In this document: positions 42,832 to 55,086 of the stretch, in pieces
Numbering within the stretch: position 1 is the stretch's first letter
Layout: every line of letters begins with the position of its first letter
Assembly: GCF_000685295.1 (NCBI RefSeq)
Contig: NZ_ARYL01000016.1
Span: 1-64,000 of the forward strand
Length of the DNA: 64,000 bases
From: Hyphomonas oceanitis SCH89
GTDB lineage: Bacteria; Pseudomonadota; Alphaproteobacteria; Caulobacterales; Hyphomonadaceae
Reading direction: 5' to 3'
Translations under genes and position numbers: made by a program
The notes under the pieces: model-generated
Seen by the model: only the letters and a program-made list of their open reading frames with translations
Told to the model about the DNA's origin: nothing
The model's database searches: none

Positions 42832-43440
42832 TCAGTATTTCAAGTATCCAAGCGTTGCCCGCTTTACGCGCAGCGACAGAGCCTTGCTGTCTGTTTCGCC
42901 TGTTCGCCCTGCCGCATCAATCATGCCTTTGCTCATGGCCACGAGGTCTGCGGCCGCTTGATCAGCGAGAGGATAATCATAGCGACGCAGCAGCGAAGCA
43001 ACGGCTGCCCGTATTTCATCGCCTATCTGCACGGTTTCGTCGAAGAGGTTCAGCGAATCCTCAAGATAATCCAGGGTTCTTGCAAGCCGCGGACGTGCCA
43101 GTTGATGCGCGACCGCCACCTCAATCAGCGCCAGCAGCGTCTCTTCCAGCGGCGCGGAATCAAACTCCAGCGCAACGCGGTTTACATTGTCCATGAGTAT
43201 ACCGCGCTCTCGCAAGGTAAGCTCTGCGAGGATTGCGGCCAGGTTGGGGAAGTACTGGTAGAGCGAACCGATGCTGACGCCTGCGGCCTCCGCGACGGTG
43301 TTTGTTGTCACAGCGGTGAGCTCTTCCTTCTCGATAATGCGAGCACTGGCTTCCAGTATGTCATTGAACATCGCCCGAGAGCGTGCCTGCTTCGGGCGTT
43401 TGCGAACGCGGTCTGAGGTGGCCTCAATACGAGTTGTCAT
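42832..43440 (-). CDS. TetR family regulator beside darcynin gene
   Basis: 202 residues from ATG 43440. The HTH is RSRAMFNDILEASARIIEKEELTAVTTNTVAEAAGVSIGSLYQYFPN in parts (about 20-66), with the YQYF recognition signature. The C-terminal domain has TetR_C features (LARTLDYLEDSLNLFDETVQ). There is no ribosome binding site before this ATG: a 20-base palindrome directly abuts it. So the message may be leaderless, or a weak TTG at 43470 is used. It is divergent from the darcynin gene and likely autoregulated. Confidence 0.88.
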   Translation of the reverse strand: MTTRIEATSDRVRKRPKQARSRAMFNDILEASARIIEKEELTAVTTNTVAEAAGVSIGSLYQYFPNLAAILAELTLRERGILMDNVNRVALEFDSAPLEETLLALIEVAVAHQLARPRLARTLDYLEDSLNLFDETVQIGDEIRAAVASLLRRYDYPLADQAAADLVAMSKGMIDAAGRTGETDSKALSLRVKRATLGYLKY

Positions 43441-43460
43441 ATGCGAGCTATAACTCGTAT
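43441..43460. promoter_or_regulatory. 20-bp palindrome between tetR and darcynin
   Basis: ATGCGAGCTATAACTCGTAT is an inverted repeat with 8 of 10 positions matching, touching the tetR start and 30 bases before the darcynin start. A further half-site ATACGAGTT lies at 43427-43435 inside tetR and is an exact complement of AACTCGTAT at 43452-43460. Such clustered half-sites suit a TetR operator that controls both genes. Confidence 0.6.
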
Positions 43461-43490
43461 TTTTGGGCAAGCAAGTACGGGATACTACCT

Positions 43491-43820
43491 ATGACCACGA
43501 CCTACACGATCTTTGTCCTGTTAAAGGCGCTACCGGCCTGGTTGCGCCTGCCACGTGATGAGCGCAGCCGCATTGCCGACAGGGCATTCTCCAAGGCGCT
43601 GGGCGAGCATGCGATGGCGTTTCGCTATTTTGATGCGGAAGCCTTTTCGGCGCGTGCGAGCGACGTCGCCCTCTTTGAGACAACAGACCTTCGCGCCTAT
43701 TATTTCGCCATGGAACATCTGCGCGACAGCCCGATCTTCGCCGAACCGTACTTCGAGATCGTCGACATCATCCCTACCATCGAGGACGGGTATCAGGCGT
43801 TTGAAGCCGCTGTTGCCTAG
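43491..43820 (+). CDS. Darcynin family protein
   Basis: 109 residues. TYTIFVLLKALPAWLRLPRDER opens the protein and RYFDAEAFSARASDVALFETTDLRAYYFAME follows in parts (about 43-73), then PYFEIVDIIPTIEDGY. This matches the darcynin family as I remember it: a small cytoplasmic ferredoxin-like (dimeric alpha-beta barrel) protein of unknown function, often next to a regulator. Here it is divergent from a TetR gene with a shared palindrome, so it is probably induced by a small molecule. Confidence 0.8.
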   Translation: MTTTYTIFVLLKALPAWLRLPRDERSRIADRAFSKALGEHAMAFRYFDAEAFSARASDVALFETTDLRAYYFAMEHLRDSPIFAEPYFEIVDIIPTIEDGYQAFEAAVA

Positions 43821-48631: not shown

Positions 48632-48706
48632 TGGTGGGCGATGCAAGGTTCGAACTTGCGACCCCTGCCGTGTGAAGGCAGTGCTCTACCACTGAGCTAA
48701 TCGCCC
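48632..48706 (-). tRNA. tRNA-Val (anticodon CAC)
   Basis: A complete 75-base cloverleaf on the minus strand: acceptor GGGCGAT/ATCGCCC, D arm GCTC..GAGC, anticodon stem CTGCC/GGCAG enclosing TTCACAC (anticodon CAC, reading GUG), T arm GCAAG-TTCGAAC-CTTGC, discriminator A and encoded CCA. It lies 33 to 69 bases upstream of the DUF374 gene in the same direction, with no clear terminator between. Confidence 0.96.
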
Positions 48707-48752: not shown

Positions 48753-48982
48753 GCGCGGAACGCTTTTGTTACCGCTAGCAGGATTATAGTCAGAAATAAC
48801 TAATGCATGAATGCATGGCTGTATCCCGATAGGCGTCAATTTCACATGCAAAAGCACAATTGCCTTATTTTGGCTTCCGTACCATCATAGTTGGTCGATG
48901 AGGGCTAAATCCTAGCTGTGTTTGCTTATTTTTGCGCATGCGAGCAGGTTTCCACATCAAAAAACTCAGCTTCCTATGCGAG

Positions 48983-49015
48983 ATGAACATCTGTTCATAA
49001 TGAACACCTGTTCAT
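48983..49015. repeat. Tandem 16-bp perfect palindromes
   Basis: ATGAACATCTGTTCAT (48983-48998) and ATGAACACCTGTTCAT (49000-49015) are identical apart from one centre base, each with 7-base perfect arms. Their centres are 17 bases apart, close to one and a half helical turns. They look like a double operator for a dimeric repressor. Half-sites TGAACA/TGTTCA are shared with the palindrome before the RND operon at 18971, but the spacer is two bases here and one there. Confidence 0.6.
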
Positions 49016-49140
49016 GTTAGATCATTACCTTTCTTTCATCGCGCTAAGCCCTTGAGAAACCCACAGAACATCGTCATCTTGCAATCATAAGCGATGGGCT
49101 GATAAGCGGCCCACGACGTAGTCAGAAAGAAGGACAGGCA

Positions 49141-49158
49141 TGTCGAAGTAATTCGACA
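49141..49158 (+). promoter_or_regulatory. Leader hairpin with GTAA loop
   Basis: TGTCGAA (49141-49147) and TTCGACA (49152-49158) pair perfectly over seven bases around GTAA, a GNRA-type tetraloop in RNA. The hairpin ends 28 bases before the ATG at 49187. An ATG-Ser-Lys-stop minigene overlaps its left arm and loop, so ribosomes could melt the stem. A role in translation or mRNA stability is inference. Confidence 0.4.
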
Positions 49159-49186
49159 GTAAAATAATAAGCCTGGAGAGAGTGAT

Positions 49187-49429
49187 ATGAAAGACTGGTG
49201 TGACGAAGAAGGCGCAAAGCGCCTTTGCGAGAAAATCAATGCCTATTGGGCCGAGCGCGGCTATGAAGTGGACGTCGACCTTGTTGACGCTGGCTTCGTG
49301 CCTGCAATGCGGAGTGCCCGCACTGACGTGCGCAGCAACATGGTGAACGGTATGCCCCGTCGTCGTGCAGCTGGCGAAGCAGGCGCAGCGCGCCCCAGCT
49401 ACCGTCCGCGTGCCGAAGCAACTGCCTAG
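49187..49429 (+). CDS. Small uncharacterised protein
   Basis: 80 residues with a good RBS (GGAGAGAG). The N-terminal part is structured (EEGAKRLCEKINAYWAERG, about 8-26), followed by VPAMRSARTDVRSNMVNGMP (about 43-62) and a basic, Ala/Arg/Pro-rich, probably disordered tail. I have seen similar short proteins with an RSAR-DVRS-NG pattern in Caulobacterales-type genomes but know no function. The YW and Arg-rich features could suit nucleic-acid or protein binding. It converges on gph. Its unusual upstream region suggests tight regulation. Confidence 0.75.
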   Translation: MKDWCDEEGAKRLCEKINAYWAERGYEVDVDLVDAGFVPAMRSARTDVRSNMVNGMPRRRAAGEAGAARPSYRPRAEATA

Positions 49430-50106
49430 CCGATAAGGCGAAGCAACGCCGGAACTAGTTCGGAATAGTTGCTGACAACTTCGTCAGCGCCGATTTCATC
49501 TTCAGTTTCGGTCTCGTACCCAAATGGAACGAATACGAAGGGCAGCCCGGCATTCCGGGCTGCCCTTTCATCTGTCCGGCTATCACCCACCATGATGGCC
49601 CGTGACCGATTGCCGCCTGCACGGTCGACGGTCAAAAGAATATGATCCCCATGTGGTTTGCGATCCGGCACGCTGTCGGCTCCCACGATAGCTGCAAACT
49701 TTTCAGAAATTTGCAACGCGTCCAGCAATCGGTCAGTCGAGCGCTGACGCTTGTTGGTGCAGACGGCAAGTATGGCCCCCTCGTCGGTCAGCGCATCTAG
49801 CGCATCCAATGCATTTTCGAATGGCCGCGATCCGACCGCGATGTTGGCTTCGTAATAGGCCAGGAACTGATCGAAGAGCGCATCCATGCGGTCTGCGTCT
49901 GGTTCAGCGCCTTGTGCCGTCATACCTTTAACGATCATGGCCTTCGCGCCATGGCCAATCATCGTGGAAATCGTTGGAAGGTCGACCGTTTGGAGGCCTG
50001 ACTCCACCAGGACATGGTTCAACGCGTCCAGCAGGTCAGGCGCGGTGTTTACCAGTGTCCCGTCGAGATCAAATACAATCGTCCAGCCGTCGAACCGCTT
50101 TGCCAT
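49426..50106 (-). CDS. gph: HAD hydrolase, phosphoglycolate phosphatase-like
   Basis: 226 residues from ATG 50106; a longer in-frame start at 50199 overlaps glmU. HAD motif I is VFDLDGTLVNTAPDLL (about 11-26), motif II is AVCTNKR (about 117-123) and motifs III/IV are KPHGDHILLTV and IMVGDSRTDERAARNAG. The cap of about 65 residues and ALNHVL are typical of Gph. It removes phosphate from 2-phosphoglycolate formed in DNA repair or oxygenase side reactions. It is divergent from glmU. Confidence 0.88.
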   Translation of the reverse strand: MAKRFDGWTIVFDLDGTLVNTAPDLLDALNHVLVESGLQTVDLPTISTMIGHGAKAMIVKGMTAQGAEPDADRMDALFDQFLAYYEANIAVGSRPFENALDALDALTDEGAILAVCTNKRQRSTDRLLDALQISEKFAAIVGADSVPDRKPHGDHILLTVDRAGGNRSRAIMVGDSRTDERAARNAGLPFVFVPFGYETETEDEIGADEVVSNYSELVPALLRLIG

Positions 50107-50192
50107 GCCTGATATGTATTCCCGTCTCGCCACTCGCCTTGAATCGGCCTTTGGTCTAGGCGAAAGGTCTGGGGAAAGCGAGAGGGCCACCT

Positions 50193-51563
50193 GTGACACA
50201 TATCGCCAGAGACCGCGCTGCGATCATTCTTGCCGCTGGCAAGGGCACGCGCATGAAGTCAGACCTGCCAAAGGTCATGCATGCCGTTGGCGGCCGACCC
50301 ATGATCGACTGGTCGATTGACCTGGCCCGTGATGTGGGCTGCTCGAAGATCGTCGTCATCGTGCATCCTTCGCAAACCGTTCTGATCGAACATGTGAGCG
50401 CCCTGCTCGGCGAAGGCGCGATTGCCTTCCAGGACCCGCCGCAGGGCACAGGCCATGCCGTGCGCTGTGCAGAAGAGACGCTCGAAGGCTTCGTCGGCGA
50501 TCTGGTCGTGCTCTATGGCGACAGCCCACTTGTGCCCCCCTCGGCCATTGAAGACCTGTATGCTGCCCTTGAGACCGGCGCCTCGCTCGGCGTGCTCGGC
50601 TTTGAAGCCGCCGAACCCGGCCTCTATGGGCGCCTCATTCTCGCCGCTGACGGCGATCTCGACGCCATCGTTGAAGCGCGCGAAGCAAGCGCTGAACAAC
50701 TCGCTGTGCGCCTCTGCAATTCAGGTGTCATGGCGGGCCGGGCTGAGACCATGTTCCGCCTGCTCGCCAAGGTGACCAACCAGAATGCCAAGGGCGAATA
50801 TTACCTGACGGACCTTGTCGGCCTTGCCCGCGCTGAGGGCGCCATCTGCAAGGCCGTCCAGTGCGGCGAAGACGATCTCATCGGTTGCGACAGCAAGGCA
50901 GACCTTGCGGAGGCCGAAGCGATCTTTCAGTCGCATCGCCGCCTTGAAGCCATGAAGGCGGGCGTGACACTGGTTGCCCCCGAAACCGTCTTCTTTTCCC
51001 ACGACACGCTCCTTGAAGCCGATGTCGTTGTTGAGCCCAATGTCGTGTTCGGCCCCGGCGTGCATGTCCGCTCCGGCGCCCGCATCCGTGCCTTCAGTCA
51101 TCTTGAGGGCGCCGATGTGGCCTCTGGCTGCGAGATTGGCCCCTACGCTCGCCTGCGTCCGGGCACCGTTCTCCAGCCCAATGTTCGCATCGGCAATTTC
51201 GTCGAGACCAAGAACACGCAGATGGGCGAGGGCGCCAAGGCGAACCATCTGGCCTATCTGGGCGACGGCACGATTGGCGCCAACGTCAACATCGGCGCCG
51301 GCACGATCTTCTGCAATTATGATGGCTTCATGAAATATGGCACGATAATCGGGGAGGGTGCCTTCATCGGATCGAACTCCTCCCTTGTTGCGCCTGTCGA
51401 GATTGGCAAGGGCGCCATTGTCGGCTCTGGCAGTGTCATCACCAAGGACGTTGAGCCGGATGCCCTCGCCGTCGCACGCGGCCCGCTCATTACGCGCGCA
51501 GGCTGGGCGATCAGCTTCCGCACCCGAAAAGGCGCCGAAAAGGCCGCCAGCAAGAAGGACTAG
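50193..51563 (+). CDS. glmU: Bifunctional GlmU uridyltransferase/acetyltransferase
   Basis: A 456-residue enzyme making UDP-GlcNAc for peptidoglycan and lipid A. The N-terminal pyrophosphorylase domain has IILAAGKGTRMKSDLPKVMH (about 10-29), GTGHAVRCAEE and VVLYGDSPLV. The C-terminal left-handed beta-helix acetyltransferase has GPYARLRPGTVLQPNVRIGNFVETKNTQMGEGAK in parts and NYDGFMKYGTIIGEGAFIGSN (about 371-391). Full length and canonical order. rpiA follows five bases later. Confidence 0.97.
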   Translation: MTHIARDRAAIILAAGKGTRMKSDLPKVMHAVGGRPMIDWSIDLARDVGCSKIVVIVHPSQTVLIEHVSALLGEGAIAFQDPPQGTGHAVRCAEETLEGFVGDLVVLYGDSPLVPPSAIEDLYAALETGASLGVLGFEAAEPGLYGRLILAADGDLDAIVEAREASAEQLAVRLCNSGVMAGRAETMFRLLAKVTNQNAKGEYYLTDLVGLARAEGAICKAVQCGEDDLIGCDSKADLAEAEAIFQSHRRLEAMKAGVTLVAPETVFFSHDTLLEADVVVEPNVVFGPGVHVRSGARIRAFSHLEGADVASGCEIGPYARLRPGTVLQPNVRIGNFVETKNTQMGEGAKANHLAYLGDGTIGANVNIGAGTIFCNYDGFMKYGTIIGEGAFIGSNSSLVAPVEIGKGAIVGSGSVITKDVEPDALAVARGPLITRAGWAISFRTRKGAEKAASKKD

Positions 51564-53787: not shown

Positions 53788-55086
53788 TCAGTCCTCTAGC
53801 AGCGCCTGGAGCTCCATCCCGACAGTCTTCAGGCTCTCGCGGATGGATTTCAGGCCGCCGCCACGCCCGGAATGAATGACCAGCTGGCGCCAGGCAGGCT
53901 GGCCGTCCTTTGGCGCCTTGACCATCAGGTGACCTGAGCGGGGCAGGGCGGCTTTCAGTAGCGCTTTGGACAGGGGAAAGCCCGCCTTGCCGTCAAACGT
54001 GCCATTGCGAGCTTCTGCCTCGAACGATGATTGTTCGCTCCGGCCCACCGCATTGAACATGACGGAGAGCGCAGGCCGCTTGCCTTCTTCCACCTGCTCT
54101 TCGATCACCTGGTTCAGCAGGCGAACGCCGCGCAGCGAATAGACATCCGCATGCATCGGCGCCAGCACCCGGTCTGCCGCCTCCAGCGCGCAGCGTGTCA
54201 GGAAGGTCGCGTTCGGGTTGGTGTCGAAGACGATCAGGTCATACTCGCTGCGATAATGGTCCACCATTCGCAGGAATTGCGACTTCACTTTCAGGAGCGC
54301 GCCGGAATCATTGGCGAAAGCGTATTTCGAAATCTCGAACTGGCCGGAGATCAGGTCCAGCCTTCCGCCGGGACTGCCTTCGCCCATGAGGTCATGCATC
54401 AGATCTTTGCGCGGCACCGGCGAGAAAGGCTCTGTCGACAGGGTCAGCCAGCTCTCGCCCGGGCTGGTCGCATCGCGGGCATGTAGTTTCGAGCGTTCAA
54501 ACAGGGAGATGACAGAGCGATCGGCTGCGGCGCTCGCGTCGGCCTCTTCCATGTCGAAGAAAGTCTGGGTCAGGTTATATTGCGGGTCGAGATCGACCAG
54601 CAGCACACGCCCGCCGAGCGCGCCCTGCCACGCGCCAAAAACCTGGCTGGTTACGGTCGTCTTGCCGACACCGCCCTTCAGGTTCATCACCGCCAGTACA
54701 GGGCATTTGCGCTTGTAGGCTTTCTGCACTTCATCAACGAGCTGCGTGACGCCATCGGGCAGGGTGGACGACAGCTTCAGATGCGGCTGGACTTCATGCT
54801 TGAAGAAGCCGTTCATCCGGGCCTTGTCGATCTGATAGGGGATGAGTCGCAGATTGCGCGCCTTGGCCCGCTCGACATCCTGCCTGACCGTCTTCGACCG
54901 CACAGCGCTGGCTGACACGATGACAATCATGGCGAACGCGTCATCGATGGCCTGGTCGGCTTTCGGGCGGTCTTCGGTGTCGTTCGGCGCATACCAGTCG
55001 GGTATGGCCGCCATGCGCAGCGCTTCATGGATTTCCAGCAGTTCGTCCAGGTCTCGCGTCGAATGGCTGATATAGACGTGCGACAT
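53788..55086 (-). CDS. TIR domain-ParA ATPase fusion protein
   Basis: 432 residues with two parts. Residues 1-115 read as a TIR domain: VYISHSTRDLDELLEIHEAL, DDAFAMIVIVSASAV and VRQDVERAKARNLRLIPYQID. Residues 128-430 are a ParA/MinD-type ATPase: deviant Walker A KGGVGKTT (137-144, signature Lys137), LLVDLDPQ (162-169) and Walker B IVFDTNPNATFLT (284-296). At the place of the usual TIR catalytic Glu the sequence has Asp70, so NAD+ hydrolase activity is uncertain. No parB, parS or effector gene is adjacent; neighbours are gor and DAHP synthase. It could be an antiphage sensor, a positioning ATPase with a signalling domain, or a regulator. I know no characterised protein of this architecture. 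Confidence 0.85.
   Translation of the reverse strand: MSHVYISHSTRDLDELLEIHEALRMAAIPDWYAPNDTEDRPKADQAIDDAFAMIVIVSASAVRSKTVRQDVERAKARNLRLIPYQIDKARMNGFFKHEVQPHLKLSSTLPDGVTQLVDEVQKAYKRKCPVLAVMNLKGGVGKTTVTSQVFGAWQGALGGRVLLVDLDPQYNLTQTFFDMEEADASAAADRSVISLFERSKLHARDATSPGESWLTLSTEPFSPVPRKDLMHDLMGEGSPGGRLDLISGQFEISKYAFANDSGALLKVKSQFLRMVDHYRSEYDLIVFDTNPNATFLTRCALEAADRVLAPMHADVYSLRGVRLLNQVIEEQVEEGKRPALSVMFNAVGRSEQSSFEAEARNGTFDGKAGFPLSKALLKAALPRSGHLMVKAPKDGQPAWRQLVIHSGRGGGLKSIRESLKTVGMELQALLED

Follow-up and report, generated by a model that had tools for sequence, protein, structure and literature searches.

A pair of near-identical 16-bp palindromes, ATGAACA-N2-TGTTCAT, standing in tandem upstream of a gene for an 80-aa protein is most likely an operator, as predicted from its sequence. 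It quite probably acts as a composite element, at which two dimers of the same factor, encoded elsewhere in the genome, would serve the single promoter of the small gene, probably in contact with RNA polymerase or a second factor, and slightly more likely as activators than as repressors. The pair was found in a 64-kb window of the Hyphomonas oceanitis SCH89 genome, the window being the whole stretch of DNA analyzed. The features of the locus are as follows.

48632–48706, minus strand: tRNA-Val (cac), divergent neighbor, probably not the target.
48983–48998: predicted operator palindrome 1, ATGAACA-TC-TGTTCAT, sequence exact, kept in relatives.
49000–49015: predicted operator palindrome 2, ATGAACA-CC-TGTTCAT, sequence exact, kept in relatives.
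49025–49039, plus strand: TTAC-N6-TTCAT box, defined by column conservation in 55 loci and a fixed distance to the operator and promoter.
49052–49057, plus strand: -35-like hexamer TTGAGA, with TTG equally far from the operator in 51/55 loci.
49075–49080, plus strand: -10-like hexamer CATCTT, 17 nt after TTGAGA, of the CAT[CTG]T[AT] type at the same offset in 50/55 loci.
49092–49115, plus strand: leader hairpin 1, from the predicted fold, with pairs changed on both sides in relatives.
49129–49182, plus strand: leader element comprising GAAGGA (49129–49134), the outer stem CAGGC/GCCTG (49135–49139 / 49171–49175), an inner hairpin (49141–49158), and the Shine-Dalgarno-like stretch GGAGAGAG (49175–49182).
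49187–49429, plus strand: gene for the 80-aa protein, whose stop codon overlaps the end of a convergent HAD-hydrolase gene (49426–50199).

The initial annotation described two near-identical palindromes with centers 17 bp apart, and this is accurate: both are exact, with one base between them. No exact ATGAACA-N2-TGTTCAT site appeared in 100 dinucleotide shuffles of the window. The setting is A+T-rich, as stated there, with a GC fraction of 0.43–0.44 at 48800–49199 against 0.53–0.57 before and 0.62 after this region. Its description as empty was wrong, since the divergent tRNA-Val gene lies on one side and conserved promoter-like and leader elements are located between the palindromes and the small gene.

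Conservation was assessed in 81 loci, consisting of the window and the best 80 of 136 relatives of the 80-aa gene, a choice biased to near relatives. Up to 330 bp upstream of each gene was scanned, and the tandem was scored at 24 specified positions (TGAAYR-N2-YRTTCA / N3 / TGAAYR-N2-YRTTCA). Among these 81 loci, 52 had no mismatch, 3 had one, 2 had three or four, and 24 had at least six. The tandem was exact in all 32 loci of the Hyphomonas set (the window and L036–L066) and in 20 of the 26 loci of the next set (L067–L092, mostly Henriciella), with three more at one mismatch, while none of the 23 most distant of these best relatives (L093–L115) had it at up to one mismatch. Four distant loci (L105, L110, L111, and L112) contained a single degenerate or shifted palindrome in a similar place. 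Lack of conservation upstream of orthologues had been named as the result that would refute the site; the exact counts by distance set (32/32, 20/26, and 0/23) do not refute it, and this tandem conservation upholds the reading as an operator array. Mean pairwise identity was 0.77 within the tandem and 0.29 in the 31-bp stretch just upstream. Four of the loci (L042, L043, L044, and L049) come from genomes labeled Acidobacteria or Candidatus Sulfopaludibacter, and have a Hyphomonas-type locus with 86 percent protein identity and the same operator and leader type; these genomes are probably mislabeled or mis-binned.

A search of 398 genomes of the order revealed the degenerate tandem in 62, one copy in each (reversed-pattern control, 0). 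All 62 belonged to the same family as H. oceanitis, of which 94 genomes were examined and 32 lacked the tandem; it was absent from the 304 genomes outside the family. By genus, it was present in 37/38 genomes of the own genus, 24/28 of g235, and 1/1 of g240. The small protein family, in turn, was detected by profile search in 292/398 genomes. The operator is therefore either an addition made by one lineage to an older gene or has been lost elsewhere. The small-protein profile matched two to four times in most genomes of one genus (g244 of family f3) and once in most other genomes, which represents a local family expansion.

The 80-aa protein is nearly invariant in its core (FVPAMRSARTDVRSNMVNGMP-like), and identical proteins are encoded in contigs of Hyphomonas johnsonii and H. 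chukchiensis. It had no Pfam match at E ≤ 0.001, only a sub-threshold NCBIfam match, and no meaningful match in a sequence search of solved structures. The predicted structure had low confidence (pLDDT 64.7) and matched nothing in the PDB, and no conclusion was based on the fold. On the 3' side, the convergent HAD-type hydrolase gene was found in 17/20 loci and a glmU-like gene in 18/20. Elsewhere in the window, the minus strand at 53788–55086 encodes a 432-aa protein in which an N-terminal TIR_2 domain is joined to a ParA/MinD-type ATPase domain; PADLOC gave a weak match only. Such a fusion is unusual, and it is located beside housekeeping genes.

The constraints within the half-sites were analyzed in 55 loci, namely the window and 54 of the best 80 of 136 relatives, all with no more than one mismatch in the tandem. 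TGAA, TTCA, and the outer A/T were fixed or nearly so, and the inner flanking bases were T/G and A/C. The dinucleotide steps between TGAA and TTCA were TG (99), CA (71), CG (26), TA (23), and CC (1), so that 219 of 220 were pyrimidine-purine, a figure that leans toward this class because the loci were picked by a YR-class pattern with one mismatch allowed; the 32 loci of the Hyphomonas set, taken irrespective of the motif, were all still exact. Apart from the single CC, the inner positions varied through transitions only. The left and right steps were uncoupled (45/110 equal; shuffled mean, 47.2), which indicates that the letters are free and only the pyrimidine-purine class is kept. This pattern suggests indirect readout, in which flexible steps would make the DNA deformable; the strict class would then reflect bending at these positions and not base contacts.

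The promoter-like boxes keep a constant distance from the tandem. The end of the tandem is separated from the TTG of the -35-like box by 37 nt in 51/55 loci, while the distance from the tandem to the ATG varies from 193 to 219 bp across orthologue loci. A scan with the E. coli sigma-70 consensus called neither TTGAGA nor CATCTT, and the promoter assignment rests on conservation. Transcription would start near 49087, which places the palindrome centers near -96 and -79. Since the spacing of the operator, the TTAC-N6-TTCAT box, and the -35-like box is constant despite drifting leader length and flanks, the bound protein probably touches RNA polymerase or a second factor. The 17 bp between the centers do not correspond to an integral number of helical turns, and the two dimers would therefore lie on different faces of the DNA.

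The promoter is followed by a leader of roughly 100 nt with conserved hairpins and then by the small gene. For the leader of the window, the predicted fold is better than those of shuffled versions (z -3.27; 1 of 200 as good), and five of nine consensus pairs were changed on both sides in relatives (31 sequences). GAAGGAC or GAAGGGC followed by a hairpin was found in 56 of the 58 loci examined, L081 and L090 being without the motif. An outer stem ending at GGAG/AGAG before the start codon was predicted in 51 of 52 distinct sequences, these being single-sequence folds and not a covariation test; L072 folds otherwise. The stem letters were CAGGC/GCCTG, CAGAC/GTCTG, CAGGT/ACCTG, or CATCTT/AAGATG. 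With a covariance model, a single copy was detected in 36 of 61 genomes, all of them from the own genus, and every copy immediately adjoins the start of the small gene. Since the 31 sequences behind the model are mostly from this genus and match it by construction, the result means only that there is no second copy. In Rfam, no family besides tRNA reached the gathering score, and a permissive search gave two matches far below it.

Taken as a whole, the arrangement would work as follows. One and the same transcription factor is presumed to bind both 7-2-7 palindromes, one dimer on each, which would leave the dimers next to each other at a distance of 17 bp and in constant phase with the promoter. 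The factor, encoded elsewhere, would use the tandem for the promoter of the small gene only and, once bound, would contact RNA polymerase or a second factor. Activation would be the outcome, and we lean slightly toward it over repression, the two being indistinguishable from sequence. A repressor or silencer could also act from upstream, either through a DNA loop to the TTAC/TTCAT box or by keeping an activator away from that box, and we regard this as possible but rather doubtful. Perfect two-dimer palindromes are typical of repressors, and the fixed spacing to a second conserved box suits two interacting sites; however, with 37 nt from the operator end to the -35-like box, the distance is too great for a direct polymerase block, and such constancy of spacing is more usual for activators. 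Service of the divergent tRNA-Val gene is hardly probable. This gene was present in 29 of 38 loci scanned, at a similar distance in the nearest relatives, but six of the 38 (L078, L080, L083, L086, L088, and L090) retain the tandem with no tRNA nearby, and the sequence just upstream of the tandem is unconserved, in contrast to the side facing the small gene. The operator travels with the small gene, as comparison of the loci indicates. Exactly one tandem in each of the 62 matching genomes would also suit a chromosome landmark, such as a segregation, replication, or recombination site, but the fixed spacing to the promoter-like boxes, co-inheritance with one gene, and the 32 of 94 genomes of the family without the tandem make this very unlikely.

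Genome-wide scans did not bear out the regulon expected in the initial annotation and point to a site dedicated to one gene. The H. oceanitis genome as a whole (4.28 Mb in 188 contigs) has the degenerate core TGAAYRNNYRTTCA at these two places only (reversed-pattern control, 1); one mismatch to TGAACANNTGTTCA adds three more places (5 in total), which is background (control, 6). In 42 Hyphomonas genomes, 52 of 56 AT-flanked sites were at this locus (control, 1), the other four being in G014 and G033 (same sequence), G017, and G026. When the AT flanks were dropped, a looser search of 61 genomes found between 0 and 7 sites in each, above the control in most Hyphomonas genomes. The other TGAAYRNNYRTTCA sites were rejected as regulon members, several of those inspected falling into two other groups and others being single places lacking a visible pattern. 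Sites of the CTGAAY-N4-RTTCAG group beside desaturase-like and von Willebrand-type genes (names read from the sequence; Pfam gave none) are not taken as targets, the H. oceanitis genome having no motif site there, and a longer stem after dut is terminator-like and was not counted.

A palindrome of a different kind, CTGAAY-N4-RTTCA with flanks mostly like GAAA/AGT, is found in gaps around the desaturase-like and von Willebrand-like genes of other Hyphomonas genomes, in many cases beside a terminator (L160, L162, L163, L165, L167, L169, L171, L172, L175, L176, L178, and L183). A single AT-flanked site, ATGAACAAGCGTTCAT, is present in L182 near 4000 (G014:C36), between a peptidase M23 gene and a divergent YdbH-like gene, and at G033:C30:16870. 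Three viral contigs contained the tandem with the flanks GTGAAC or CTGAAC, not ATGAAC, and were taken as unrelated; the small protein had no tblastn match below E 0.05 in the viral contig stretches.

The search for the regulator agreed with the earlier proposal that it is encoded elsewhere, the nearest regulator gene found being of TetR type at 42832–43470, about 5.5 kb away. This gene, on the minus strand, is divergent from a small ORF at 43383–43820, and the gap contains a different inverted repeat, AATACGAGTT ... AACTCGTATT (recognized by eye), unlike the tandem operator; it was rejected as the factor because its own divergent promoter shows this other repeat. The search covered TetR-type and ArsR-type genes, of which the genome has 28 and 12, respectively. 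Within the stretches around these genes (mostly about 3.1 kb, the shortest 1.9 kb), no good site was found by a hand-made score: the best value was 12.7, and that near the TetR genes 12.6, against 27.3 for the operator, although autoregulation is not a requirement for such factors. Since the strict motif does not recur anywhere else in the genome, there is no sign of a factor that reads it and controls its own gene. At loci with changed synteny, the upstream neighbors (flavin reductase, SecD/SecF, cyclophilin, queuine transferase, and a solute-binding protein, with 3 of 10 proteins without a family) included no regulator candidate.

A dedicated single-target regulator that does not adjoin its target is unusual. 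As a tentative extension, the Hyphomonas and Henriciella lineage might share a conserved form of orphan one-target control, in which the factor, the flexible YR steps, and a leader RNA outside Rfam would together determine how much is made of a small protein that is order-wide and of probably basic function. The site is sharply defined and testable, with one promoter, one operator, and fixed geometry in cultured marine bacteria. The factor, once found, would give access to the function of a small protein retained in most genomes of the order and would show how a regulator persists for a single distant target.

In general terms, the tandem shows what is expected of an operator: it is an inverted repeat that, ahead of orthologous genes, is better conserved than the sequence around it. 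RutR-type sites of the TetR family, TTGACCA-N2-TGGTCAA, have the same 7-2-7 architecture and TGA-N8-TCA frame; the half-site letters and the tandem layout differ, and no matching site was found in the stretches scored around the 28 TetR-type genes. An ArsR/SmtB-type metal sensor is an unlikely factor. The half-site letters are similar, since an Anabaena repeat listed in PMC8790569 contains TGAACA-GA-TGTTCA, and both systems have an even-spaced palindrome with a 2-bp center and TGAAYA-like half-sites; the same paper reports a regulator gene far from its target. However, ArsR/SmtB operators are described there as 12-2-12 imperfect inverted repeats near or overlapping the promoter or start, whereas the present tandem has arms of 7 with weakly conserved flanking columns (≤0.74 bit), stands well upstream of the -35-like box, and consists of two palindromes 17 bp apart; the stretches around the 12 ArsR-type genes contained no such site. 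The LysR-type regulator MetR shares the ATGAA and TTCAT half-sites, but its consensus in PMC4239095 is ATGAA-N5-TTCAT, while the spacer is 6 in the window and all 55 tandem loci, hence a different dyad; within alphaproteobacteria, that paper reports MetR only in Rhodobacterales. No paper on the tandem site, including the exact string TGAACANNTGTTCA, was found in the open-licence literature, which leaves its absence unproven; the tandem operator is ordinary in kind and, as far as these limited searches go, undescribed. The leader differs from the cis-regulatory families of Rfam in reaching the gathering score of none, and resembles structured 5' leaders near the Shine-Dalgarno sequence in having hairpins upstream of the start codon, including one that directly adjoins GGAG, and pairs changed on both sides in relatives.
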